Assembly: GCA_019241535.1 (NCBI GenBank)
Contig: JAFAWX010000286.1
Location: forward strand, 1-36,518
Direction: 5' to 3'
DNA from: Acidobacteriota bacterium
GTDB lineage: Bacteria; Acidobacteriota; Terriglobia; Terriglobales; Acidobacteriaceae
Length of the DNA stretch: 36,518 bases
Shown: piece by piece, positions 3,940-33,008 of the stretch
How positions within the stretch are numbered: the stretch's first letter is position 1
Layout of the letters: every line of letters begins with the position of its first letter
Notes under the pieces: model-generated
What the model saw: the letters and a program-made list of their open reading frames with translations, nothing else
Database searches by the model: none
What the model was told of the DNA's origin: nothing
Translations under genes and position numbers: made by a program

Positions 3940-5844
3940 ATGGATCACATCATTTCCTCGGCGGCGAAGCAGCTCAATCGTGTGCGCGCTGTTCGCCTGG
4001 GACCCCCTGGCATGATTTTCGAGCGGCGTAGTGATGGTTGTTTCATCGCACGGAATCCTCATCCTCTTGACAGATACCCGGAAAAGATTACTGACCGTCT
4101 GGTGCATTGGGCGCGGGCGGCGCCGGATCGCGTGTTTCTGGCTCAGCGCAGGGGGGATCAGACATGGCGCACCATCCGTTATGCCGAATTTCAGGCGAAC
4201 GTGCGAGCCATCGGCCAGGCTCTGCTGAGCCGCGGCTTGTCTGTCGAGCGTCCGATCGTGGTGCTGTCCGGCAACGACATCGAACACGCGCTCCTGATGT
4301 ACGCAGCCATGCTGGTTGGGATCCCTTATGCGCCTATTTCGCCCGCATACTCGCTGGCGGTGAAGGAGTTTTCGCGGCTTAGAGGTATTGTGGAACTGCT
4401 TCAGCCGGGAATGATCTTTACAGACAGGCTCGATGTCTTTGGAAATGCGTTGCGAGCGGTTTCTTTCTGCGGCGCAGAATTAGTTACTTCCGGAGACCCT
4501 TCGCCATTGCGCGCCACGCCTTTCGAGGTTTTGAGCAGGGCACAGGCAAGCGCTGCCGTGGATCGTGCCAATGCAGCCGTCAATGCTGATACGATCGCCA
4601 AGATTCTATTCACCTCCGGCTCAACCGGCGTCCCCAAAGGCGTAATCAACACCCAGCGCATGCTTTCGAGCAATCAGGCGATGATTCTAAGCGTTTTACC
4701 CTGCCTTGCGGATGAGCCACCGCTCACAGTCGACTGGTTACCGTGGCATCATACTTTTGGTGGGAATCACAACCTCGGCCTGATCCTTTATAACGGCGGA
4801 ACACTCTACATCGATGAAGGGCGTCCCCTTCCAGGCAGGTTCAACGCCACGGTGAAAAATCTACGGGAGATTGCCCCCACCATCTATTTCAACGTCCCCC
4901 GAGGATATCAGGAACTCATCGCGGCTCTCCGGCGCGATGAAGAACTACGTCAGCGCTTCTTCAACCGGATTCAAGTCATCTTTTTCGCTGCCGCTAGCCT
5001 TTCGCAGACCGCGCGCAATGACTTGGAGCGTCTGGCGCTCGAAACGTGCGGAGAACGCATCCCCATGGTGAGTGGTTTTGGGTCGACAGAGACAGCGCCG
5101 TCATCGCTCTGCCCGGTCCTCCAATCGGGCTGCTCCGGTTACATCGGAGTGCCGGAGCCGGGGGTCGAACTGAAGCTGGTGCCTTCTGGAAATAAACTCG
5201 AAGCGCGCGTGCGTGGTCCCCATGTGACGCCCGGGTACTGGAAGCACAACGAAATGACGGCCGCGGCTTTCGACGAAGAAGGCTTCTACCGGACGGGTGA
5301 CGCACTTGCACTCCTTGATAGGGATCATCCCGAAAAGGGGTTCATCTTCGACGGCCGTCTGGCCGAGGATTTTAAGCTCTCGACCGGGACATGGGTGAGC
5401 ACCGGGGAGCTGCGCACGAGCTTGGTAGCTCATTTTTGCCCATATGTACAGGATGCGGCCATCACCGGTCATGACCGCAGCGAGGTAGGTGCGCTGATTT
5501 TTCCTGATTATGAGGCGTGCCGCCGCCATGCCAGATTGCCCCGCGGCGCATCGGATTCGGAAATCGCCTCCCACTCGCGCGTGCGTGCTCTGTTTCGGGA
5601 GCTGCTCGAGAGCTTCGCCGCCCAAAGCACTGGCAGTTCGAATCGGCTTACACGGATCCTGCTCATGGTTTCAGGGCCTTCTCTTGAAGCCGGTGAGATC
5701 ACCGACAAAGGGTCGCTGAACCAGCGACTCGTGTTAAGCCATCGCGCCGAACTCGTCGAACGTTTATACGAAGTTCATCCGCCCGACCGCGTCATCGCGC
5801 TCCATGCTGCCTGTCCGGATACCGAAAAACAGAGTGGTCAATAA
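3940..5844 (+). CDS. fcs: Feruloyl-CoA synthetase-like AMP-forming ligase
   Basis: A 634-residue member of the ANL (acyl/aryl-CoA synthetase) superfamily. The ATP-binding loop [13 protein letters not shown] is at about residues 221-233, the A5 motif [10 protein letters not shown] at about 378-387, and the A7 motif YRTGDA near 450. The segments [16 protein letters not shown] and NVPRGYQEL, and a [14 protein letters not shown] hinge in place of the usual GYR-type core, are features of the feruloyl-CoA synthetase branch. That enzyme activates ferulate or related hydroxycinnamates with ATP and CoA in lignin-monomer breakdown. The length fits the family (about 600-630). No enoyl-CoA hydratase/aldolase or vanillin dehydrogenase gene is nearby, so the pathway role is inferred from the family only. 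Confidence 0.78.
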
Positions 5845-6004
5845 GACTGACAACGGCGTTTACGCCCAGTCTTTGATTGATGTGCCGTCGATGCTGCAAA
5901 TGAGTGGCCGGCAGTCGGCGTGGACCTGGGTTCGGATTCTCGTGTAGCCGACCATCTGCGAGCGGCCGATTTACTCGACTGTGCCAACGCTCCAAAAATT
6001 GTGC

Positions 6005-6880
6005 CTACATGCTCGAAAAACGACTAAAGTGTCTCAATACATCGTCAGAGAGTCGCTCCAATTGTTCCTCTTCGTCAAACACGGGATTCAGCAGCACCTG
6101 GTCCACACCGGCATCTTTGAGACGGGCAATTTCTTCCACAATCCGCTGTGTGGATCCCCAAACCGAAACTTGATCGGCCATGTCCGGCTTGCCGTAGAAG
6201 GCCCCGAACCATTCGCGTAGCCGCGGCAGATCCTCTCCCACGGCAACATAAAGACGCTTGGCTTTCGGGAACTTGGGCGGAAGTTTTTTGATGTCTTCGA
6301 GAAATGTGCCCGTGGGCGTCGACCCAGCGCCAATGTAGCCGTCGCCCAATTCTACCGCCCGTCGTAATGCTGCCTCTGCGCGGCCGCCGAACCAGATCGG
6401 CGGGTACGGTTTCTGAACAGTTTTCGGCGCCATAGGGGTGCTTTCAAGGTGCGAAAAACGTCCATCCAGCGTCACTTTTTCTTCTGTCCAAAGGCGCTTC
6501 ATAATGGCCAGATTCTCGCGGAAGCGGGCGACGCGACCTTCCGGAGGCAGGCCGTAAGCAGGGTAGAACCTTGTGCCGTGGCCGAGGCCGACGCCCACAA
6601 TTAACCGTCCTTTTGAAAGGACGTCCAAGGATGACAGCGCCTTTGCGAGATCAATAGGATTGCGGACAGCGATAATGAGGACGGCGATTCCCAAGCGCAG
6701 TCGCTTGCTCAGCGCGGCTGCATATGCCAGCGTAGTTACAGATTCCAGCACGGGTGCGGTTCCTATAACCTGTTCAATGCACCACGCCCCGGCAAATCGC
6801 AGTTCTTCGGCTCGTTTCAGAAACCGCTGAATGCGCTCAGGGTCAGGAAAAGTCTGGGGAATGGAAATGGAGAACTCCAC
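6005..6880 (-). CDS. LLM-class (luciferase-like) flavin/F420-dependent oxidoreductase
   Basis: A 291-residue TIM-barrel protein of the bacterial luciferase-like monooxygenase superfamily. Diagnostic segments are the N-terminal FSISIPQTF strand, LGIAVLIIAVRNPIDLAKALSSLD, GRLIVGVGLGHG and, later, PPIWFGGRAEAALRRAVELGDG. Members use FMN or F420 to oxidise or reduce small substrates; which cofactor applies is not decided by the sequence. It lies 38 bases downstream of the rhodanese pseudogene on the same strand and may share its promoter. A second, only distantly related LLM gene is on the other strand at 7.5 kb. The substrate is unknown. Confidence 0.8.
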   Translation of the reverse strand: MEFSISIPQTFPDPERIQRFLKRAEELRFAGAWCIEQVIGTAPVLESVTTLAYAAALSKRLRLGIAVLIIAVRNPIDLAKALSSLDVLSKGRLIVGVGLGHGTRFYPAYGLPPEGRVARFRENLAIMKRLWTEEKVTLDGRFSHLESTPMAPKTVQKPYPPIWFGGRAEAALRRAVELGDGYIGAGSTPTGTFLEDIKKLPPKFPKAKRLYVAVGEDLPRLREWFGAFYGKPDMADQVSVWGSTQRIVEEIARLKDAGVDQVLLNPVFDEEEQLERLSDDVLRHFSRFSSM

Positions 6881-19792: not shown

Positions 19793-21295
19793 TTAGCTTC
19801 GGTCCATCGCAGCGCGCCAAAGATGCATGGCTGCATACCCCCGCCACGGTCGCCATGCCTCAGCTCTCATTTCCAACTCGCTCGCCGACAATGGTGCTCG
19901 TCCTCCTGCGGCCACCGTGCGGAGGACACGGTCGGAGGCCGGAAAGGCATCAGGTTCTCCGAGTGCGCGCAAGGCAATGTACTGCGCCGTCCACTCGCCG
20001 ATCCCCGGAAGCGCAACGAGGGTAGCGCGAATGTCTGCTGCAGCAGCCTCGAAATCCAGTTTTCCTTCCGCGACGACCCACGCCAGTGCCCGCAAAGCCT
20101 TAAGCTGTGGCACGGTGAGTCCCAAGCCCTCGAGGTTTGCCTCTGCCAGTTCAGCGGGAGTCGGAAATAAGTGCTTCACACGCGCAGTCGACGTGTCGAG
20201 GGAACAGCCAGCGCGCACCACCAGCCGCGCCGTAAGCCTGCGGGCTTCCGCAGCCCCGATCTGCTGACTCAACACCGCAAGCACTGCACATTCAAAAGCA
20301 TCCCATGCGCCAGCAATGCGCAGGCCCGGATGGCGGTGCACCAATGGTGCGAGTAGCGGATCGTATCGGAATGCAGCGGCGACCAGGGCTGGGTCCGATG
20401 CAACGTCAAAAGTCCGGCGAGCGTTCGCCGAAATGTGCAGAAGCGCTGCTGGCTCGGCATCCCGTACCCGCAACTCCAGTGCATTCTCGCCTTCCGCAGG
20501 GTAAACACTGATTAACGCGGCGCTCCTTCCGACCCTTGCGGTACGCACGTACCGGCACTCGCTTGCAAGCTCAATTCCGGGCACGGCTCGGTGAGCCAAA
20601 AAGTCCCGGACCTGTGCCCAGTCATAAGGTGGACGAAAGGCAAGTCGAAGCACCACCTCGTCTTCATCACCTCTAATCGCTGACCGTTGTCGTCGCAACT
20701 CGCGCGGTGCGCGACGGAAAGTCTGCCGGAATGCACTGTTAAATCGTCGAATACTTTCGAAGCCCGCGGCAAAAGCGATCTGTGTAATCGGGAGCTGCGT
20801 CTCGTCTACCAAGCGCTTAGCGAAATGCAGCCGGCGTGTCTGTGCCATCGCGACCGGCGGTGCGCCCACGTGCCGCAAGAATAGCCGGTGCAGATGACGG
20901 GACCCGATGCCGAGCCGTGCCGCCAGTTCGTCGATCGAGTTGTGGTCCAGAAAGCCAGCATCGATCAGGCGCAACGCGCGTCGCACGACCGCCGAGGTTC
21001 CCAACCAAGCCGGCGTTCCAGGGGCCGCTTCGGGACGGCAGCGCAAACAGGGGCGGTAACCCGCGGCTGCCGCAGCCGCGGCACTCGGGTAATAACGCAC
21101 ATGGGGTCTCTTGGCGTGAGGCGAAGGACAGATGGGACGGCAGTAAATCCTGGTCGAGGTAATGGCGATAAAAAACTTACCGTCAAAGCGTGCATCGCGG
21201 CTCATGCGAGCCCGGTCCAGAGCGCGCACACTCAGGCCAAGAGTCTCCCCCATCGTGGGCGACGATAGCTCCGGCTCCGTCCGTCGACTCGCCAT
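19793..21295 (-). CDS. alkA: Ada-type zinc domain / AraC regulator / AlkA 3-methyladenine-DNA glycosylase fusion
   Basis: A 500-residue protein from ATG 21295, with AGAGGT upstream; a downstream ATG at 21253 is possible. Residues 33-90 are an Ada metal-binding domain, with C52, C56, C83 and C86 in YCRPICPS and CLRCRPE. An AraC-type helix-turn-helix region follows (about 95-190: ELAARLGIGSRHLHRLF, then FAAGFESIRRFNSAF). The rest is AlkA: an N-terminal AlkA domain, then the HhH motif LPGIGEWTAQYIALRALG and the catalytic Asp in DAFPASDRVLR. There is no Ada methyltransferase (PCHR) domain. It should sense methylphosphotriesters and excise alkylated bases. Known architecture in several phyla. Confidence 0.9.
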   Translation of the reverse strand: MASRRTEPELSSPTMGETLGLSVRALDRARMSRDARFDGKFFIAITSTRIYCRPICPSPHAKRPHVRYYPSAAAAAAAGYRPCLRCRPEAAPGTPAWLGTSAVVRRALRLIDAGFLDHNSIDELAARLGIGSRHLHRLFLRHVGAPPVAMAQTRRLHFAKRLVDETQLPITQIAFAAGFESIRRFNSAFRQTFRRAPRELRRQRSAIRGDEDEVVLRLAFRPPYDWAQVRDFLAHRAVPGIELASECRYVRTARVGRSAALISVYPAEGENALELRVRDAEPAALLHISANARRTFDVASDPALVAAAFRYDPLLAPLVHRHPGLRIAGAWDAFECAVLAVLSQQIGAAEARRLTARLVVRAGCSLDTSTARVKHLFPTPAELAEANLEGLGLTVPQLKALRALAWVVAEGKLDFEAAAADIRATLVALPGIGEWTAQYIALRALGEPDAFPASDRVLRTVAAGGRAPLSASELEMRAEAWRPWRGYAAMHLWRAAMDRS

Positions 21296-21475
21296 TTTCA
21301 GACCTCTTTGTTTGGCCTTGATTTTAACGGCGATCTGCCCTTCGCACGCAGGGGATGCAGAGTGCGACGAGTCTATAAAGTCCGAAACCGGCGAGTACGC
21401 ATGTTCGGTTCGACTTACGGTGACTAGCGATGTGGAACCGAGTTGAATTTTTAAACGTTTCCTCAAGGAGGGCAG
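21296..21475. promoter_or_regulatory. Divergent promoter region of the AlkA fusion and HAF-repeat genes
   Basis: About 180 bases lie between divergent starts. It contains the AGAGGT box of the glycosylase gene at one side and AAGGAGGG at 21465-21472 for the other. Promoter boxes are not assigned. Confidence 0.35.
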
Positions 21476-22774
21476 ATGAAATTCAAGCCTTTGGCAACTG
21501 TGCTCGCAATAACCCTGCTGGCTGCATTTCCAGATTGGCTGCCCGCGCAGACGAGATATAAGGTGGTGACTCTCCCGACACTCGGCGGCAGCGTTGGAGC
21601 TGCTAACAGTATCAACAACCGTGGCTGGGCGAGTGGGCTCGCCAACTTTGCTGGAGATACCGTTGGTCACGCCTCCCTGTGGTTGAACTCCTCGCGTGTC
21701 CTCGATCTCGGCGCTCTCGGTGGGCAGACCGCAAACAGTGCCGTAGCCTGGCCAGTAAAGAATGACCGGGGGCTAATCGTAGGCATTTCAGACACTGCCG
21801 ATGACAATCCCCTCGGAGAGGCGTTTTCCTGCTGGCCATTCTTTACTCCAGGCAGCCCGACGGGCAAGATCTGCAAAGGTTTCCGCTGGAGAGACGGCAG
21901 GATGGAGCCCCTGCCACCCTTTGCCGGAGGCTACAACAGCTATGCGACGGCTGCTAACAATCGCGAGCAAATCGTCGGTTGGGCGGAGAATGGTGTTCAT
22001 GACCCCACTTGCAACCCCTCGTTTCAGATCCTGCAGTTCAGGGCGGCGATCTGGCAGCCGGATGGTGAGATGCGGGAGCTACCGCCCTTGCCCGGTGACT
22101 CTACCAGCGCGGCGACTGCGATTAACGATCGGGGAGATGTCGTCGGCATCTCCGGCGCGTGCGGCATAGCCGTTGGCGGCGTCAGCGCCGCTCATGCTGT
22201 ACTCTGGCACGAGGGTGTACCTATTGATCTGGGCAGTTTCGGTGGACATTCCTGGAATACACCCACGGCGATCAACAATCAGGGCGTGGTGGTTGGATTT
22301 TCGTTGCCCGCAAGTCAGGACGGTACGAGCAACTTTCGGGCATTCATCTGGACCGCTGAAAGCGGCATTCGTCCACTCGGCATGCCTGCCGATGATATTC
22401 GTAGCGAGGCCTTGGGAATCAATGAAAAGGGCCAAGTTGTTGGTTTGTCGCGATCACGGTCGGGGTTGCGGGCAATTATTTGGGAGAACGGTACCTTCAC
22501 CGATCTCAACACCTTGACGCAGCCGGGATCTCCCTACCTCATTTTTGCCAACGACATCAATAATGAGGGCCGGATTGTGGGCGAAGCCGCGATTCCCAAT
22601 TCGACTGCCTCCCCCGCATACGTCGCTGTTCCAGTACATAAGGTAGAGGACGATTTAACAGCCATAGAGGGGCGGCGAACCCCTCACGATGCGCAGCCAT
22701 TAAACCTTTCCCGAGACCGCGAGAAGCGCATCGAACATCGCGCCTTCCGCTTTGGATTTGATCCAGGAGACTAG
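21476..22774 (+). CDS. Secreted HAF-repeat protein
   Basis: A 432-residue protein with a strong AAGGAGGG ribosome-binding site and a signal peptide ending near DWLPAQ. The mature part is built of repeated units of the type AxxINNxGxVVGxS (for example SINNRGWASG, AINDRGDVVG, AINNQGVVVG, GINEKGQVVG, DINNEGRIVG), separated by segments of the form AxLWxxGxxxDLG. This is the extracellular HAF repeat family, probably a beta-propeller-like surface or periplasmic protein of unknown role. The last 40 residues (after VPVHKVEDDL) are charged and non-repetitive. The stop overlaps a possible GTG of the next frame by one base. Confidence 0.85.
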   Translation: MKFKPLATVLAITLLAAFPDWLPAQTRYKVVTLPTLGGSVGAANSINNRGWASGLANFAGDTVGHASLWLNSSRVLDLGALGGQTANSAVAWPVKNDRGLIVGISDTADDNPLGEAFSCWPFFTPGSPTGKICKGFRWRDGRMEPLPPFAGGYNSYATAANNREQIVGWAENGVHDPTCNPSFQILQFRAAIWQPDGEMRELPPLPGDSTSAATAINDRGDVVGISGACGIAVGGVSAAHAVLWHEGVPIDLGSFGGHSWNTPTAINNQGVVVGFSLPASQDGTSNFRAFIWTAESGIRPLGMPADDIRSEALGINEKGQVVGLSRSRSGLRAIIWENGTFTDLNTLTQPGSPYLIFANDINNEGRIVGEAAIPNSTASPAYVAVPVHKVEDDLTAIEGRRTPHDAQPLNLSRDREKRIEHRAFRFGFDPGD

Positions 22775-26365: not shown

Positions 26366-26408
26366 TTTAGGCGCTTATCGCCGAACGTGAAAAATTTGTT
26401 GTCGCTGT

Positions 26409-28046
26409 TCATGCCGCCACCCCAAGCTCGTGGAAGACGTTCTGCATGACGGTTCGGAGCGCGGCGTAATGGGCATCTAGCGGTGTGGGGTTTTGGGGTT
26501 GGCGGCTTGGCCGAACGGGCTGTACAGCGGCAAGTAGAGGCTTGATGGCTTTGTCGCGGAGAACGACGAGGGCAGCGATGGCTCTGAGTCCGTGGGCAAG
26601 AGGCTGGTATCGGACAGTTTGGCCGATGCGCTGGATGATCTGTTTACCCCGTAGCTTTTTGAGATCGTAGGCGGCGCGACGTGGGCCATATTCTGTTTCG
26701 TTTTGCCGGCTCAGTTTGCGTACATGTTCGGCCAACTGCGAGGCGGTAAAGCCGTTTGGTGTCGCGGAAAGCGCCAGGACTGCTTGGACGACCCAACGCA
26801 TCCGAGTTCTATTGAAATCGATACCACCCACCTTAGTCTTTCCTACTCGGACGGGTAGTGGAAGTTGTTCCAGCGTTTCATCGGCGATAAAGCACTGATC
26901 GATACATGACAGCGTAGTCATAAAGCGCTCGAGAATAGCCTTTAACAGGCAAACAATCGTGGGAAACTTCTCCAGCGAGCGCCCACACTGCAATTCCTGA
27001 GTATTGTGCGCAATGGCCTCGATGCGAAGTACACGTTCGCCTTTGGTATAAATCTTCAGAGTCAACTTCCCGCAGTGAAGCTTGAAGATCGTCAGATCAT
27101 ACGTAGGTCTCTCGACAGTTACTTCCCATCGAGCTGAAGGCCCTTTGCGTTTGTGATATTTTGGGCGGCGCTGGTATCCGAGGATAGTTCTGATGGTTTT
27201 GAGGTCAAGCCGGGTACGGCTGCGGTCAATGAGGGCTTGAAAGACTTGTTCCATCCGGCCGCCCAGTTCAAAAATGAGATTCCGGCTGTATTCGATCTGA
27301 TAATTTGAGTATCGATAATGAAATCCGCTACTCTTTTGCTCCTCCAGGTCGAGGGCAAAACAAAGGCAGGTGGTATAAATCCAACGCTCGCAGGCTTGGC
27401 TTAGCCGCCCTATAGTCTGAGATTCAGACAAGGTATCTGCGATCCTCGCCAAGCCTGCGGCGTCAGAAATATGTGTAAAGCAGTTTCCTTCCTTGGTAAA
27501 GTCAATTCCCGCCGTGCGGGCCTGGCAGGCCACATATTCATGGCCGTTTAGGACCACTTGGGCGGGGAACGGAGGATGCCCACTGATCTTGATGGTGATG
27601 TGGCCCCACTCGGGATCGAGAATGTGAAATGAGTAGTGGTTGACGTACGGCATCGGTTTTTTGCGCTGAAGATGGCGGGATCGGCTAACGTCCCATACGG
27701 GGGCCTGGGCTCGGCCAATCAGGATCAGAAACAGACCTTGTTGGACTTGAGTCTTGGCCAGATATTCCTCGGCGATTTCATGCTTTCGTTCCCCTACTCG
27801 ACAATCGAGCAATGGAATGTTGTGGGCTTTGGCATAGCCGCGAATACGACGGCTGAAGCGGCCAGCTAGCCGCATCAAGTGAGTGTTGTCGAGCGTGCCT
27901 TCTGAGCCCGTCAGTGCTCGCCACCAGACCCGGAACCCACCCGGCGAGTGCCCTATCCGGAAGTAGCCATTGAGGACAATCCGATCGACGCAATCGTAGC
28001 TGCCGGTGAGGAGATCTTGGTAAAGCTCACAAAGTCCGTCCGCCAT
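26409..28046 (-). CDS. Uncharacterised 545-residue protein with C-terminal winged-helix-like region (paralogue A)
   Basis: No enzyme motif I know is present: no reverse-transcriptase, recombinase, helicase or nuclease signature. The N-terminal region contains YDCVDRIVLNGYF. The central region has DPEWGHITIKI, then VVLNGHEY, AGIDFTKEGNCF and YQIEYSRNLIFE. The C-terminal third has a winged-helix-like pattern (FTASQLAEHVRKL, then AAYDLKKLRGKQII and RYQPLAHGLR). The next gene upstream has the same order and matching phrases, so the two are paralogues. It starts at ATG 28046 and lies 168 bases downstream of its paralogue, with a hairpin-rich spacer between. No signal peptide. Nucleic-acid binding is inferred from the C-terminal part only. 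Confidence 0.75.
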   Translation of the reverse strand: MADGLCELYQDLLTGSYDCVDRIVLNGYFRIGHSPGGFRVWWRALTGSEGTLDNTHLMRLAGRFSRRIRGYAKAHNIPLLDCRVGERKHEIAEEYLAKTQVQQGLFLILIGRAQAPVWDVSRSRHLQRKKPMPYVNHYSFHILDPEWGHITIKISGHPPFPAQVVLNGHEYVACQARTAGIDFTKEGNCFTHISDAAGLARIADTLSESQTIGRLSQACERWIYTTCLCFALDLEEQKSSGFHYRYSNYQIEYSRNLIFELGGRMEQVFQALIDRSRTRLDLKTIRTILGYQRRPKYHKRKGPSARWEVTVERPTYDLTIFKLHCGKLTLKIYTKGERVLRIEAIAHNTQELQCGRSLEKFPTIVCLLKAILERFMTTLSCIDQCFIADETLEQLPLPVRVGKTKVGGIDFNRTRMRWVVQAVLALSATPNGFTASQLAEHVRKLSRQNETEYGPRRAAYDLKKLRGKQIIQRIGQTVRYQPLAHGLRAIAALVVLRDKAIKPLLAAVQPVRPSRQPQNPTPLDAHYAALRTVMQNVFHELGVAA

Positions 28047-28095
28047 ACGGTGAGCAGGTTAGTGGTACGGCGTAACAATAGGCAAGTGTGTGCGG

Positions 28096-28131
28096 ACTCC
28101 TGACTCCTCACTCCTGCTGCCCCGAAGGGGC
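28096..28131. repeat. Heptamer repeat tract followed by a GAA-loop hairpin
   Basis: Three tandem heptamers ACTCCT(G/C) occupy 28096-28116. Two bases on, GCCCC-GAA-GGGGC (28119-28131) forms a 5-bp hairpin with a GAA loop. A similar order (period-7 CTTCCGG/CTCCTAA units, then a hairpin with a GAA loop) follows the four-helix-bundle gene at 30252-30310, so the two may share an origin. Confidence 0.55.
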
Positions 28132-28133
28132 CA

Positions 28134-28204
28134 CTTTTTCGCAACGCAGTCTGCGAAAAAGCGTAGACCGTTAATGGGGCCCCAACGAGAATTTTGCTCT
28201 CGTT
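28134..28204. promoter_or_regulatory. Two stem-loops in the spacer between the paralogues
   Basis: A 10-bp perfect stem pairs CTTTTTCGCA (28134-28143) with TGCGAAAAAG (28152-28161) around an 8-base loop. A 7-bp stem pairs AACGAGA (28184-28190) with TCTCGTT (28198-28204), just past the stop of the upstream gene. GGGGCCCC (28176-28183), a perfect palindrome, lies between. They could terminate or attenuate the minus-strand transcript or form a structured RNA; no U-run clearly follows, so a standard terminator is not certain. Confidence 0.5.
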
Positions 28205-28213
28205 AGGACGTCG

Positions 28214-29833
28214 TCAAGCAGCAACTTTCAGCCCGGTCGCGGCGACCAATTCATCCAGAGCGGCAACGACAGACTGGTAGAGTTTGTCGAGTTGATGTAG
28301 CCGCTCGGCTGTTATGGTTCGGTCCGCGGAATAGGGATGTAGGAGGCCGGCGGTCAGTGGTGCGTAGATCTTATCAAAGAGTTTGAGAAACAGCAGACAG
28401 ATGCGATATCCGTTGGGAAGGAGCCGATAACGCCGAGAGTGGGGCAGTTTTTCAATGAGACCTTTCGCTCGGAGTTTCCACAGTTCGTAGCGTAGTCCGC
28501 CTAGAGGAACCCTCTCAATAGGTATGCCAAGCGCCTCGGCCGCAGCCGCTTGTAATTCGGCGGTGGTGAAAGTATCGCCTGCAGCGACATGGGAGAACCG
28601 TACCAGAGCACTCATGACAGCCAGTTGCCGAGGATGATCCAGTTTGAGTCCGGGAATCCTCTTGCCATTCGGTCGTAGAGTTGGCTCGCCTAACTTTCTA
28701 AGCTCTCCTCGATCGAGAAAAGTTTCCAAGATATCCTGTTGTACACATTGATAGCGCTCCGTGATGCCCTGCAGTTTCTCTCGCAGAGGGACAAGGTTCT
28801 CTACAGCCTTATTGATGCCGTAGTCTCCTTTCACATCGTTGCTGGCAGTTTCGAATCGGAGTACATCATGATCACGCACATAATGTTTGGCGAACCCATT
28901 TTTGTAATAGCTTCTCATCACGGGGTTTCCCAGATGCAAATCTTCGATCTCGGTTTGTAGTTTGCCCGAATATCGTTTGCTGATCCGTCGGCCGAAGATT
29001 ACCGTAAGCTTGTCGGGTCGACCGAGATTGCGATTGGCATCCAGGAGTCGATCGCCCAGTTGGTCGAGCGCTGCGCGACGGCTGAAGATCAGGTTGTCGC
29101 AGTATTCCACTTGGGCGAAGAACAGTTGATGCCAGCAACCGTGCTCACGCCGTTCTGAACTGCGAAAGAAAGGCACCAGACGGTTGATCCATTTGTGACC
29201 ACAGCGCAGGAGGTCCTTGGCGGTTAGGGAATCAGCGATCTCCTGGAGAGCGGCGGGATCACCGCAGCGGCGAAAGGCATTGCCGCATTGGGTAAAGCGA
29301 ATCCCGGCTCGCTTCATCTTCTCGGCCAGCCAGGAGTGCTGGTTCAGGCAGATCCTGGTGGAGAAAGGAAAATACGGGCATACCCGAACGAATATTGGCC
29401 CCCATTCGGCATCCTGCAGATAAAAGTTATATTGCTTGACCCAGCGATACTTGGTTTCTAAATGCCACTTTTTCCCGGCACCGATGGCCGTCATAATGCC
29501 GGCGGGTTCCCGGGCCTTGATGATCACCACCGCTTGATCGGGTTGTGCCTTTTCAAAATAGGGATGAACGAAGTCATCGCGCCGACCTTTTGGGTCGTCG
29601 ACGATTTCTACGCCCCATGTCTGAGCGCTGTGCTCCACCCAGTTGTGATACTGGCTCGCCACCTCTCGCAAGATGTTGCGGCTCACCGGATAAGTGTTTC
29701 GATGGACCCAGAAAAAGCCTTGTGCTCGGGCTCCGTCCAGGAAGGCCTGAATACAGCCATTCAAGAGAAGACGGTCGAAGCAGCGGTAGCGCAACCGGAT
29801 GTTATTCTGATGATGCTCGAAAAAGGCGTTCAT
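28214..29833 (-). CDS. Uncharacterised 539-residue protein with C-terminal winged-helix-like region (paralogue B)
   Basis: The start is ATG 29833, with GGAGG seven bases upstream; the TTG at 29839 is rejected. The N-terminus has YRCFDRLLLNGC, the centre DAEWGPIFVRVCPYFPF, then RICLNQHSWL, AGIRFTQCGNAF and VEYCDNLIFSRRAALDQLG, and VIFGRRISKRYSGKLQTEIED. The C-terminal part is winged-helix-like (FTTAELQAAAAEALG, then LRYELWKLRAKGLIEKL and RRYRLLPNGYR). I recall similar full-length proteins in many soil bacteria, often annotated only as hypothetical; no function is known to me. The start codon lies inside a 13-bp inverted repeat. The reading frame is intact, in contrast to its broken surroundings. 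Confidence 0.78.
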   Translation of the reverse strand: MNAFFEHHQNNIRLRYRCFDRLLLNGCIQAFLDGARAQGFFWVHRNTYPVSRNILREVASQYHNWVEHSAQTWGVEIVDDPKGRRDDFVHPYFEKAQPDQAVVIIKAREPAGIMTAIGAGKKWHLETKYRWVKQYNFYLQDAEWGPIFVRVCPYFPFSTRICLNQHSWLAEKMKRAGIRFTQCGNAFRRCGDPAALQEIADSLTAKDLLRCGHKWINRLVPFFRSSERREHGCWHQLFFAQVEYCDNLIFSRRAALDQLGDRLLDANRNLGRPDKLTVIFGRRISKRYSGKLQTEIEDLHLGNPVMRSYYKNGFAKHYVRDHDVLRFETASNDVKGDYGINKAVENLVPLREKLQGITERYQCVQQDILETFLDRGELRKLGEPTLRPNGKRIPGLKLDHPRQLAVMSALVRFSHVAAGDTFTTAELQAAAAEALGIPIERVPLGGLRYELWKLRAKGLIEKLPHSRRYRLLPNGYRICLLFLKLFDKIYAPLTAGLLHPYSADRTITAERLHQLDKLYQSVVAALDELVAATGLKVAA

Positions 29834-29883
29834 GGCCAACCTCCAGTGTGGTGAGACACCTGAAGCTTAAGCCATGAACGCCT
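29824..29883 (-). promoter_or_regulatory. Inverted repeat enclosing the start codon of paralogue B
   Basis: AGGCGTTCATGGC (29824-29836) is the exact complement of GCCATGAACGCCT (29871-29883); allowing one mismatch the match extends to 16 bases. In a minus-strand transcript the leader arm would pair with the start codon and first codons of the gene, with the GGAGG ribosome-binding site in the 34-base loop. This could block translation unless melted. Alternatively it is a scar of an inverted duplication. The divergent four-helix-bundle gene starts 8 bases beyond the outer arm. Confidence 0.6.
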
Positions 29884-29890
29884 CTTGGGT

Positions 29891-30265
29891 ATGTCTTCCG
29901 ATCGCTCTCCGGCGCGCAGTTTCCGTGACCTCACAGTCTGGCAAAAGGCACATGAGTTTGTGTTAGCGGTTTACCGTTATAGTGAATCGTTTCCCGAACG
30001 GGAGAAGTTTGGGCTGGCGCACCAACTCCGTCGTGCAGCCGTTTCCATTCCGGCCAACATTGCCGAGGGGTTCGGCAAGCGTAGCCAGGCTGAGAAAGCT
30101 CGATTTCTGAATATCGCCGAGGGTTCCGTGGAAGAGTGCCGGTACTATTTGATTCTGTCCCAAGACTTGGGCTACGGCCAGAACAGGTCACTGACGAGCA
30201 CTCTGGAAGAAACCAGCAAATTGCTCAACGCCTACGTGCGAACGATCCTGGCTTCCGGCTCCTAA
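29891..30265 (+). CDS. Four-helix-bundle protein of the S23 / 23S rRNA intervening-sequence family
   Basis: A 124-residue protein from ATG 29891 (TTG 29885 is an alternative). It has the family pattern FRDLTVWQKAHEFVLAVYR, then FGLAHQLRRAAVSIPANIAE and GFGKRSQAEKARFLNIAEGS with VEECRYYLIL. Known relatives form pentameric four-helix barrels; the diversity-generating retroelement accessory protein Avd is homologous. No reverse transcriptase or template/variable repeat was seen here. It is divergent from paralogue B with starts less than 60 bases apart. Its stop codon lies within a period-7 repeat. The role is not known. Confidence 0.88.
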   Translation: MSSDRSPARSFRDLTVWQKAHEFVLAVYRYSESFPEREKFGLAHQLRRAAVSIPANIAEGFGKRSQAEKARFLNIAEGSVEECRYYLILSQDLGYGQNRSLTSTLEETSKLLNAYVRTILASGS

Positions 30266-30310
30266 CTTCCGGCTCCTTATCCCGGAGGGATATCAAGGGC
30301 GAAGCCCTTG
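30252..30310. repeat. Period-7 repeat at the end of the S23-family gene plus a GAA-loop hairpin
   Basis: CTTCCGGCTCCT is repeated directly at 30252-30263 and 30266-30277 and can be read as four heptamers, overlapping the stop codon of the gene. CAAGGGC-GAA-GCCCTTG (30294-30310) is a perfect 7-bp hairpin with a GAA triloop. It lacks a T run. The hairpin could end the transcript or mark the end of an inserted unit. Confidence 0.5.
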
Positions 30311-30770
30311 CCTAGTTAGTCGTAGGAGATAGCAGAAACTGGCACGCTACGGAGTCCCTCGGAGAAGAGGTGAATCAAGGTGGGCATTATGAGCGGAATC
30401 TGTTGGTCGGCGGGGAAATCATGGGGTTGGTCCCCGTGGTCCACGCAGCCAATCGATCTGTCCGCACCGGAACTTCCTGGGCACCCCAATTTGCGCGAAG
30501 TGTTCGGCCAATTCCACCAACAACTTGGCAAGTTAACCACTTGCCATGTTCTGGAGCAAACACCTTCGGCTTGAGGCTGGCCAAAGTTCGACCGAGGAGC
30601 AGCGCTCCAACCTGAGCTGAAACTGGCTCGAGGCCGTGCAGTTCCGGACTCTGAGCAATTGACGATTCGAAAAATACCTCAACTTTCGTGGTGCAGAGCG
30701 CATCCCGGACAATGAGAACTGTATGGAAGATGAGACCTTGTGTATAGGCTCGTGTGTGCACAATTTGCCG
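30311..30770. other. Unassigned stretch between the S23-family gene and the isomerase remnant
   Basis: About 460 bases. Short frames occur on both strands but none shows a family pattern I trust. Part of it may be heavily eroded upstream sequence of the fucose-isomerase-like gene or an insertion junction. Confidence 0.35.
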
Positions 30771-31334: not shown

Positions 31335-33008
31335 ATGGCGCGAACAATTTGCGCTTTGATGACCACTGTGTTGTTGCTCACACTCGGTGTTTGCGCAGCT
31401 CTTGTCCAGCAGCGAGAAGAGTCTGTGCAAAAGCCCAGGGTTGTTATTACAGCAGACCCCGAACTCGATGACAACAACACACTGATCCGTGCGATTCTGT
31501 ACAGCTCGGATTTTGATGTTGAAGGCCTTGTCTACGTCAGCAGCCAATTCCATTGGACAGGCGATGGCAAAGGCACCACGCAGTACATCCCCGGCCGCGA
31601 ATACACCCGCATGGGTCTGTGCCCATGCACCTCCTGGAGATTTGCTCGCCACGAGCACTTCATCGACAACATTGTCGATAGTTACGCGAAGGCGTATGCA
31701 AATCTGAAAGTTCACGCTCCGGATTACCCGCCTCCAGCGGTATTGAAGTCGAAGATCAAATGGGGGAATGTAGAATTTGACGGTGATTTCTCAAAAGACA
31801 CCGACGGTTCGAATCTCATCAAGTCCCTTCTGCTCGATGATCAGCCTAACCCATTGTATGTTACCGCACAAGGAGGAGAGAGCACGATCGCTCGCGCACT
31901 GAAATCCATCTACGACCTGTATGCGCACAGTCCGGAATGGAATGCGATTCGCGAGAAGGTCTCCCGCAAGCTCATCATTATTCCTTCGGGAGATCAGGAC
32001 GGCACCGCCGCTGGATACATCAGACCGAACTGGCCAGACGTGAAGGAATGGCAATTTGAGGGTGGACCAAATTTTGGTTACGGAGCGCAAATCAGGATTG
32101 CGCCAGAAGATGAGGAGTATGTCAGCGCCGCTTGGACGCAGGAGAACATCCTGAGCCGAGGGCCATTGGGCGCGCTCTACCGAGTTTGGGGCGACGGCAA
32201 GCAGATGGTCAAGGGAGACCGGGCCGATTATTTTGGCCTGACGGGTTACACAGCTGATCAGCTTAGACAAATGGGATACATGGTCTGGATGCCACCGCAG
32301 GAGAAAGGGAGCTTTCTCGGCGAGGGAGATACGCCAACATTCATCAACCTCATCGACATAGGATTGCGTGAATATGAGAATCCATCTTGGGGTGGCTGGG
32401 GCGGACACCTGCATGCTGGGAATGAACCACGCATAGATTTCTTCAGTGGCGGGTATCCTGTGCCTAAGTTGCCTCCGGACACCTCAGGTGTTGCGAGAGG
32501 TTTGGCGCCGGCAGGAAGCAACGCGAACACTCCCAGTACAGAAAAGAAAGTTGCGCCTCCTGCTCCCATCGATTTTTCCAAATTGATGCCGAAGATTTCT
32601 CCGCGCAGCGCGGCGATTTCTGCCTCTTTCTTTGCGGCGGCCCAAAATGATTTCGCAGCTCGGCTGAAGTGGGCTGTGACACCGAAATTCAGTGACGCCA
32701 ATCACCCGCCGATGGTGAGCATTGCCGCGCCGCTAGATCTTTCCGCTCGTCCCAGTAGCGAAGTTAATCTTCGCGGAGAGGTTTCAGATCCCGATCGAAA
32801 CACAGTAACGGTAAAGTGGTGGCAGTATAACGATGCGGGCACTTACCCCGGAAATGTCACGTTCTCTGCGCCGACAGCACTCACAACTACGTTTCGAGTG
32901 CCCGATGATGCTAAGGCCGGTGAGACAATTCACGTCATCTTGGAAGCTACCGACGACGGCACGCCACGCCTCACCCGATATCAGAGGGTCATCATCACGA
33001 TCAAATAG
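31335..33008 (+). CDS. Secreted DUF1593 (nucleoside-hydrolase-like) protein
   Basis: A 557-residue protein with a signal peptide (LMTTVLLLTLGVCAALVQ) and an intact frame. The N-terminal domain (about 33-380) fits DUF1593, whose fold resembles inosine-uridine nucleoside hydrolases: VVITADPELDDNNTLIRAIL carries the acidic metal-binding cluster, and YVTAQGGESTIARAL and WGGWGGHLHAGNE are typical. The C-terminal part (about 465-557: NHPPMVSIAAPLDLS, then EVSDPDRNTVTVKWWQYND) is an Ig/fibronectin-like beta-sandwich. It probably acts on a sugar conjugate outside the cell; the activity is not established. It is the only intact catabolic-looking gene in the decaying region. Confidence 0.82.
   Translation: MARTICALMTTVLLLTLGVCAALVQQREESVQKPRVVITADPELDDNNTLIRAILYSSDFDVEGLVYVSSQFHWTGDGKGTTQYIPGREYTRMGLCPCTSWRFARHEHFIDNIVDSYAKAYANLKVHAPDYPPPAVLKSKIKWGNVEFDGDFSKDTDGSNLIKSLLLDDQPNPLYVTAQGGESTIARALKSIYDLYAHSPEWNAIREKVSRKLIIIPSGDQDGTAAGYIRPNWPDVKEWQFEGGPNFGYGAQIRIAPEDEEYVSAAWTQENILSRGPLGALYRVWGDGKQMVKGDRADYFGLTGYTADQLRQMGYMVWMPPQEKGSFLGEGDTPTFINLIDIGLREYENPSWGGWGGHLHAGNEPRIDFFSGGYPVPKLPPDTSGVARGLAPAGSNANTPSTEKKVAPPAPIDFSKLMPKISPRSAAISASFFAAAQNDFAARLKWAVTPKFSDANHPPMVSIAAPLDLSARPSSEVNLRGEVSDPDRNTVTVKWWQYNDAGTYPGNVTFSAPTALTTTFRVPDDAKAGETIHVILEATDDGTPRLTRYQRVIITIK

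Follow-up and report, generated by a model that had tools for sequence, protein, structure and literature searches.

The question raised by this locus is what kind of entity is formed by two large tandem genes and a small divergent gene that stand in a partly degraded region of an Acidobacteriota genome (Acidobacteriaceae; contig JAFAWX010000286.1, positions 1 to 36,518, the stretch of 36,518 nucleotides hereafter called the window). The sequence-only reading described the three genes as an intact block and considered a mobile element, a defence system and an RNA-binding system. The two large proteins, A and B, are indeed encoded by open frames and, as proposed, are paralogues (23% identity over 548 columns, E 3e-36) that carry no family name: searches of Pfam, NCBIfam and PADLOC with both proteins produced no match at E<=1, PHROGs gave only two weak matches for protein B (E 0.14 and 0.35), and the protein libraries searched do not name the family, which spans several bacterial phyla with members of about 480-570 aa. 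The suggested decay on both sides holds in part: the GH2 gene seems to be split over two frames (one of the two pieces matches at E 0.02 only) and the GH3 gene is truncated, but the Sde182-like gene that adjoins the block (31335-33008) looks full length. Between close relatives, dN/dS is 0.07-0.11 for protein A, 0.09 for protein B (compared with L042 and L043) and 0.06-0.08 for the four-helix-bundle gene, a range of 0.06-0.11 overall that reflects purifying selection.

Comparison with other genomes resolves the block into two abutting mobile elements, namely a B element and an A element that is inserted in the right-end CTA of the former (Table 1). The B element aligns with L042 (88.8% identity over 2,157 bp) and L045 (85.9% over 2,158 bp), the flanks being unrelated in both cases, and all three loci have both ends and the four-helix-bundle gene in common. 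The A element recurs without B, between other flanks, in L005 (76.9% identity), and its final 99 bp are found at 100% identity on another contig of the host (C18), where the match stops at 26367 and thus represents a second A right end. Junctions of the same kind as the A/B junction are present in L043, L010 and L104, and in four of the six A-type loci altogether, the A element adjoins the right end of a further element; an empty site for the insertion in the window was not found in 20 relatives. The hairpin-rich spacers pointed out from the sequence are the termini of the elements, although the minimum-energy fold of 70 bases at the B left end favours pairs other than those of the hairpin listed in Table 1. 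The exact ends shared across genomes, the second A end and the dN/dS values support the earlier suggestions of recent arrival or selection and of a mobile element. In contrast, the proposal that the block is a single unit stands only for B and the four-helix-bundle gene, which move together; A is separate.

Table 1. Features of the two elements in the window
Feature	Position	Strand	Description
A element	26367..28166	-	1,800 bp; from the CTA shared with the B right end to the CTAA right end
A right end	26367..26382	-	GGCG-ATAA-GCGCC hairpin, then TAA; identical on C18, similar in L005
Protein A	26409..28046	-	transposase-like, 545 aa; open frame
A left-end hairpins	28119..28163	-	CGCTTTTTCGCAG..TTGCGAAAAAG; GCCCC-TTC-GGGGC; similar in L005, L043, L010, L104
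Shared CTA	28164..28166	-	common to B right end and A left end; insertion point of A
B element	28164..30319	-	CTA to CTA, 2,156 bp; same ends and content in L042, L045
B right-end hairpin	28176..28203	-	ACGAGAG..CTCGT and GGGGCCCC
Protein B	28214..29833	-	transposase-like, 539 aa from ATG; open frame
S23/IVP four-helix-bundle gene	29885..30265	+	ATG at 29891; within B element, divergent from B
B left-end hairpin	30295..30309	-	AAGGGC-TTC-GCCCTT; from sequence

The small gene of the B element belongs to PF05635 (23S_rRNA_IVP; E 5.8e-38, 129.8 bits against a cut-off of 33.8) and more weakly matches Avd, in agreement with its initial description as a divergent S23/Avd-like gene; no other PF05635 match was found in the host genome. 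Other B-type elements contain this gene at the same position, and S23/Avd-type four-helix-bundle proteins are also encoded in one C-type and one D-type element. The same four-helix-bundle family includes proteins of 23S rRNA intervening sequences and the Avd proteins of diversity-generating retroelements, but here the gene lies beside a transposase gene in a transposon rather than in an rRNA gene or next to a reverse transcriptase. S23/Avd-like proteins probably bind nucleic acids, and this property, along with the presence of three intact genes side by side, would fit a system for defence or RNA binding that relies on joint action of A, B and the four-helix-bundle protein. Such a system is highly improbable: it is contradicted by the separate occurrence of A (L005) and of B with the four-helix-bundle gene (L042, L045), conflicts with the exact ends and mobility of the elements, and finds no sign in the PADLOC search, which was negative for defence.

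The relatives of A and B are typically elements of 1.7-1.9 kb with one gene each, and the family as a whole consists of elements of 1.7-2.2 kb that carry one transposase gene and conserved, asymmetric, hairpin-bearing ends. A single Thiosymbion genome contains five full chromosomal copies, four of which are 99.8-100% identical over their common 1,799 bp and differ in their flanks, as well as 231-bp miniatures that retain the ends, of which at least 41 copies are near full length. A search of 639 kb with the left-end pattern recovered 17 matches upstream of the gene, one elsewhere on the same strand and none on the opposite strand. The Mycobacterium SM1 copies L090, L092, L103 and L105 vary at their ends by one or a few bases and were therefore omitted from the table of ends. 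L119 and L121 have 56 extra bases in common on the left.

Relatives are also present in 20-24 plasmid records, and the nearest enzymes by fold, discussed below, are initiators of plasmids, phages and ICEs, so that the family might be viewed as integrated rolling-circle plasmids or mobilizable replicons, with the protein functioning as a replication or transfer initiator and the chromosomal copies produced by another integrase. We consider this explanation quite unlikely given that the elements have exact ends at 1.7-1.9 kb, leaving space for one large gene and no integrase, and that the five chromosomal copies and the miniatures in Thiosymbion keep these ends. Furthermore, both plasmid copies compared (L009 and L012), which share the same element ends, are insertions within large plasmids; none of 50,697 phage records contains a relative, and viral contigs searched with protein B as the only query yielded none either.

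The leaders of many one-gene elements appear to be structured, with a closing stem that includes the GGAG preceding the transposase ATG. Rfam recognized no family in the block of the window or in the leaders supplied from 12 sources, nor in the L009 leader at a relaxed threshold. An RNA-guided role of the leader, modelled on the bridge RNA of IS110, was set aside on the grounds that identical copies have no common flank beyond CTA and that this GGAG lies within the closing stem.

Gain of an element is precise at a CTAG-like tetranucleotide, as demonstrated by the one insertion with empty sites, L072, whose insertion point is empty, with a CTAG-like tetranucleotide, in 17 of 117 Paraburkholderia genomes. 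The most common empty site, also found in the nearest relative, is CTAG; the filled site has CCAG on the left, which may be a later change because CTAG prevails among the empty sites and in the nearest relative. This insertion fits both a target duplication and insertion 3' of the tetranucleotide, and in the part of the tabulated elements that have CTAG as both the left and the right tetranucleotide, a 4-bp target duplication is indistinguishable from insertion 3' of CTAG. Joining the flanks of 40 loci gave an open frame across the junction in 21, many probably by chance; the frame at L051, in a methylase-like gene, looks genuine, the one at L071 was dropped as a fusion of two different genes, and the one at L072 led to the empty-site comparison above. 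For the Thiosymbion loci L074 and L076, no other genome among the four searched matched across either junction, the flanks being repeat-containing.

Precise insertion and the CTAG on both sides would also be expected of an ordinary double-strand cut-and-paste or copy-paste IS with an unrecognised DDE-type transposase and CTAG target duplication, for which three invariant acids (D151, E252 and E336) are available; the TBP-like fold described below would then serve only for DNA binding, as TBP-like folds do in, for example, RNase H3 (PMC4132731, available part). Nevertheless, this alternative appears unlikely: terminal inverted repeats are missing in all 16 elements tested, the two termini carry different hairpins, 11 of the 41 tabulated elements combine a left CCA or GTA with a right CTA, and KxYx[KR]..RxE is near-invariant.

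Structural modelling was performed on a relative, the L074 protein (24% identical to A and 28% to B), which stands in for both; single-sequence prediction for protein B itself reached a pLDDT of 34. The L074 model (pLDDT 86) consists of a TBP-like saddle and a winged helix, so that the winged helix suspected at the C-terminus is borne out on the relative rather than on A or B. Residues 2-376 of the model match archaeal TBP with Z 9.7 (179 residues, rmsd 3.8), modestly above the best Z of 7-8 typical of models without a clear match; the comparison with 2z8u gave Z 8.6, and the winged helix part reached Z 10.7. Foldseek against the PDB found nothing at E<=0.001 (best 9e-3), no Rep_trans structure is among the 50 best structural matches, and the profile search against PDB sequences returned only weak matches, including MarR-type proteins at the C-terminus. 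The top viral Foldseek match, A0A2N9QVX7, is also the top viral match reported for a Rep-Arvir protein (PMC13107129, available text).

The aligned family members share D22 (59/59), D151 (62/62), K324 (62/62), Y326 (61/62), K328 (58 K and 4 R), R334 (62/62) and E336 (62/62), for which protein B has D20, D141, K316-H-Y318-x-R320 and R326-x-E328 and protein A has K-I-Y-T-K ... R-I-E; E252 is likewise invariant. In the portions of PMC4797284 and PMC5714925 available, the Rep_trans family (PF02486: pT181-type Rep, ICEBs1 and Tn916 relaxases) is described as likewise having a TBP-like fold, Asp/Asp/Glu and a Tyr in an [RK]xYxK strand followed by RxE; the catalytic set of RepDE is D46, D142, R189-x-Y191-x-K193 and R212-x-E214 (PMC4797284). 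The L074 model shows a TBP-like fold in the putative nuclease domain, and in the aligned sequences the candidate catalytic Tyr and three acidic, putatively metal-binding residues likewise follow one another as D, D, Y and E, accompanied by [RK]xYxK and RxE. Thus, although A and B had been described as free of motifs that mark an established class of enzymes, their invariant residues match the Rep_trans catalytic set in kind and order, but not the full motifs I RxD, II [TS]x[YE]xG and III YxKxxE (PMC5714925): the A5 consensus lacks the RxD of motif I and the E of motif III, and motif II is indistinct. At the sequence level there is no match: PF02486 hit none of the 62 members at E<=0.1 (in hmmscan, where HMMER filters can drop weaker ones), and hhalign of the A/B family against five Rep_trans proteins, a set that left out a sixth match below the family cut-off, gave Prob 0.05% and E 0.85. 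The A/B proteins further differ from Rep_trans in the fused winged helix and in their genetic setting: a short element encodes them as its transposase, whereas Rep_trans genes are part of a plasmid, phage or conjugative replicon.

The predicted domain layout also resembles that of Rep-Arvir (DUF7845/PF25227), initiators of archaeal viruses and plasmids, which likewise combine a TBP-like nuclease domain with a MarR-like winged helix and recognize a hairpin site (PMC13107129, in the text available); the L074 model shows the same fusion, and the PF25227 profile matched none of the 62 members at E<=0.1. In contrast to the A/B family, Rep-Arvir proteins belong to archaeal replicons, not transposons, and the available text of that source reports no short element, two ends or CTAG target for them. 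Taken together, the KxYx[KR]..RxE signature, the two aspartates and the modelled fold appear to resemble the Rep_trans/Rep-Arvir rolling-circle nucleases. Among the papers listed for the terms used in the library searched, no title or abstract opening names a Rep_trans-like or TBP-fold transposase.

With respect to the organization of the ends, there are counterparts elsewhere. IS200/IS605 and TnpA-REP elements have subterminal hairpins, no inverted repeats, a fixed short insertion sequence and miniature derivatives, and they encode a small HUH transposase (Y1 in IS200/IS605). The A/B elements are similar in their asymmetric hairpin ends, lack of terminal inverted repeats and miniatures but encode a protein of 530-550 residues without the HUH motif: HxH is absent from the A5 consensus, and there are no transposase families among the Pfam matches of the 62 members. 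IS91/ISCR and Helitrons use other target sites. According to the available text of PMC5714925, they employ a rolling-circle-type tyrosine nuclease, as proposed here for A and B, lack inverted repeats, as the A/B elements do, and make no target duplication; their enzymes, unlike those of the A/B family, are of the HUH type.

We consider it probable that A and B are transposases of an undescribed transposon family and, from the model and the conserved residues, that each is a TBP-fold tyrosine nuclease, in place of an HUH or DDE enzyme, that probably acts via single strands. We infer the chemistry as follows. A TBP-fold tyrosine endonuclease, kin by fold to Rep_trans and Rep-Arvir, would nick one strand beside a CTA-type tetranucleotide at each end, with the terminal hairpins recognised by the winged helix; the element would then be rejoined and would enter, in single-stranded form, 3' of a target resembling CTAR, much as IS200/IS605 or IS91 do but without an HUH enzyme. 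The four-helix-bundle protein might be an accessory nucleic-acid-binding partner of the B transposase, and in many one-gene relatives, the structured leader could mask the ribosome-binding site in front of the transposase gene. The chances are about even that these features define a bacterial superfamily characterized by a single-strand TBP-fold nuclease, repeated recruitment of S23/Avd proteins as dedicated co-factors, structured leaders that often control translation of the transposase and, in A-type elements, a preference for related CTA right ends.

Transposases employ a handful of chemistries, and to our knowledge, as well as in the available text of PMC5714925, single-strand and rolling-circle transposition involves HUH enzymes only. 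If correct, the present reading would add a new transposase class, present in several phyla and based on the second of the rolling-circle nuclease folds. It would account for some of the families annotated as 'hypothetical protein' or as miniature repeats and would provide a small insertion system that targets CTAG with precision. The S23 family would gain a recurrent partner, and with its S23/Avd-like four-helix bundle found repeatedly beside a transposase, the function of this old orphan family becomes testable.

The window proteins A and B belong to a transposon family, a finding that is real and goes beyond the first description of this DNA. Each lies in an element of its own, with exact ends and second copies (see the table; L-numbers denote loci with relatives of A or B). 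The start of another contig of the host assembly matches the window at 100% over 99 bp, up to position 26367, and then continues into other DNA, indicating a second copy of the right end of A in the host genome. Among the options left by the sequence-only reading, the mobile element is borne out by this second end and by the ends of B that recur in L042 and L045 between unrelated flanks. The proposal that three genes form a unit, with the recurrence expected of one, stands for B and the four-helix-bundle gene, which lies within the B element and recurs with B in different loci (L042, L045), but not for A, a separate element that recurs on its own (L005). The two tandem paralogues are indeed intact, with open frames and homologous sequences, whereas the claim that the genes on both sides are broken does not extend to the Sde182-like gene beside the block; because this gene is seemingly full length, not every neighbor has decayed.

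Coordinates of the elements and genes in the window
Feature	Position	Strand	Remarks
A element	26367-28166	minus	relative L005 with other flanks
B element	28164-30319	minus	same left and right base as L042 (88.8%) and L045 (85.9%), unrelated flanks
Protein A	26409-28046	minus	intact frame, paralogue of B
Protein B	28214-29833	minus	intact frame, paralogue of A
Four-helix-bundle (S23/IVP) gene	29885-30265	divergent from B	PF05635 match
Sde182-like (nucleoside-hydrolase-like) gene	31335-33008	plus	adjoins block, seemingly full length
625-aa protein	19796-21670	minus	Ada-type metal-binding, AraC-type HTH and AlkA N-terminal domains; open frame

At the protein level, A and B are the two family copies in the host genome, and the PF05635 gene is the sole one found there. 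Pfam, NCBIfam and PADLOC gave no hit to A or B at E<=1, and B has two weak matches in PHROGs (E 0.14 and 0.35). Relatives were detected in 3 of 61 genomes with B as the query and, with an eight-sequence profile, in 34 of 396 genomes of the host's phylum (host counted in both), the latter count taking in many fragments, several at contig ends. Scanning genome contigs with one pattern gave 296 candidate stretches, of which 155 were confirmed and 80 kept (L042-L121), from Acidobacteria, Gammaproteobacteria, Betaproteobacteria, Actinobacteria, Planctomycetes, Chloroflexi, Verrucomicrobia, Armatimonadetes and others. Among 72,556 plasmid records, 20 matched B and 24 a central relative; no relative was found in 50,697 phage records or, with B the only query there, in seven stretches of viral contigs. 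A tree of 21 sequences, with 4 of its 18 inner branches open, yields four groups, the A-, B-, C- and D-types, and places L020 next to A on a long branch. The two halves of a B-type gene in L047 (304-5476) lie ~3.4 kb from each other, probably separated by a further insertion; in L045 (4968-6617), the B gene is broken over three frames and the four-helix-bundle gene of that element is intact.

The A element starts within the CTA that closes the B element. A like junction, B then A, exists in L043, and like junctions with C-type neighbors in L010 and L104, so that an A-type element adjoins the end of another element in four of the six A-type loci; no second family member was found within L005 or L018. 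The window and L043 could share one inherited A-B pair, but their A proteins diverge more than their B proteins (dN 0.197 versus 0.128), and repeated insertion of A would therefore seem to fit better, on sequence divergence between proteins whose rates may differ.

Mobility, ends and target are directly observable in relatives. The Candidatus Thiosymbion genome contains five full copies; four copies are 99.8-100% identical across a common 1,799 bp and different beyond, and Caballeronia and Paraburkholderia plasmids (L009/L012) have in common an element of like shape at 92-94%. In both cases the ends are fixed independently, by copies whose flanks differ. In a table of 41 elements, from which the less clean Mycobacterium SM1 copies were excluded, end motifs were picked by eye and the right motif was always chosen with CTA, so that the right-end CTA is there by construction. 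C-type elements begin with CTAR (or CCAR, GTAG), and in many of them a GAGGC..GCCTC hairpin and ACCGACGAG come next; at the other end, a CTTGACTC-like stretch precedes CAAGGA-like letters and a closing CTAG. Over 639 kb, a strict left-end pattern, built from the same loci, has 17 hits immediately upstream of the gene, a single further hit on the same strand (a miniature copy in L075) and none on the opposite strand; the corresponding right-end counts are 22 at the gene's end, 6 and 1. No terminal inverted repeats were found in any of 16 elements tested, the window A and B included (two 40-base ends; in each, at least 26 of 300 shuffles matched equally well). The Thiosymbion genome also harbors a 231-bp miniature that retains these ends; at least 41 of its copies are near full length (84-100%), a lower bound with 40 of 548 first-look candidates scored, and the copies often lie head to tail, with a CTAG common to neighbors. 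In the Thiosymbion sequences L075, L078, L150 and G450, ~231-bp miniatures are joined in this way to full copies and to each other.

When the flanks of L072 (Paraburkholderia elongata) are joined, 17 of 117 genomes from this genus match them across the junction. Any match at all was seen in 22, the others being the host of L072 and four with short pieces. The empty site is CTAG in 8 of the 17, CCAG in 3, CGAG in 3, and TCAG, TTAG and CTAA in 1 each, and the filled site has CCAG on the left and CTAG on the right. Thus, this single insertion was precise: the element was gained at a CTAG-like tetranucleotide, or on its 3' side, and the sequence is otherwise unaltered. In 11 of the 41 tabulated elements, the left trinucleotide is CCA or GTA, unlike the right one, which would argue against plain target duplication. 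In L051 (~4868-6580), an element interrupts a methylase-like gene whose frame is restored in the joined flanks.

The four-helix-bundle gene, divergent and adjoining B, is present in six of eight B-like loci (the window, L042, L043, where its end falls in another frame, L044, which is one contig with L004, L045 and L025). None was found in ~1 kb upstream in L046, and none was counted in L047, where upstream DNA is just ~300 bp. The gene occupies the same position in C-type L058 and D-type L026, where in both a CTAG hairpin resembling a left end lies on its far side, and L039 has a fragment of it beside a transposase fragment; overall, it occurs in 5 of the 80 genome-contig loci. The dN/dS ratios (Nei-Gojobori) are 0.06-0.08 for this gene, 0.08-0.09 for B among the window, L042 and L043 (0.16 for L043-L044), and 0.07-0.11 for A, with dS up to 2.7, near saturation. 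The protein presumably has a role in the B element.

Many C-type elements possess a ~100-nt leader ending just before the start codon. Among 21 sequences selected because they carry it, two-sided changes occur at 11 of 15 pairs. Of five measures, four were above every one of 500 shuffles and the fifth (further pair types) was reached in 36 of them; every slid version scores lower. At E<=0.1, the leader model has sense-strand matches in 30 of 80 loci; 20 of these supplied the sequences it was built from, and several of the remaining 10 are near-identical to one of the 20; four extra matches are on the opposite strand at the same places. The window has no match at this threshold, and no Rfam family matched the leaders searched. 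The leader would have its role in the transposase gene: given GGAG in its 3' strand, the simplest reading is that it hides the ribosome-binding site. In five C-type elements (L070, L077, L089, L065, L087), an inverted copy of the own left end was seen by eye within the leader region.

Folding B alone gave a poor model, and the Thiosymbion L074 protein was modeled instead with a 62-row alignment including A and B (pLDDT 86, pTM 0.69). A winged helix is predicted at residues 403-505 (best Z 10.7), and residues 2-376 are predicted to contain a TBP-like saddle (179 residues aligned at Z 9.7 and rmsd 3.8; the tool's usual best Z is 7-8 for models without a clear match). Foldseek matches of the model were weak in PDB (best E 9e-3); in a viral set, the best was A0A2N9QVX7 (1.2e-6), then giant-virus TBPs among others. 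A0A2N9QVX7 is also a reported match of RepSNJ2, an archaeal Rep-Arvir initiator in which a TBP-like nuclease is joined to a winged helix of MarR type (PMC13107129); RepSNJ2 and the L074 model have this match in common. In Rep_trans (PF02486) rolling-circle nucleases, the metal ligands are D46, D142 and E214, with R189-x-Y191-x-K193 and R212-x-E214 (PMC4797284). The family has like residues in the same order, by alignment counts: D22 (59/59, with gaps in three rows), D151 (62/62), K324-x-Y326-x-K328 (62/62, 61/62, and K in 58 and R in 4 of 62) and R334-x-E336 (62/62 each), all within predicted strands of the L074 model; five Rep_trans proteins read RxYEKGxxxG...WVRxE, which looks similar by eye. 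No profile match to Rep_trans was found, and the RxD of motif I and the E of motif III (motifs as in PMC5714925) are absent; thus, the family enzyme probably works like, rather than is, a Rep_trans enzyme. Its chemistry would be that of a nuclease, and the elements may transpose by a single-strand route. What is new here is a transposon family with an enzyme type so far not reported for transposition in the literature searched.
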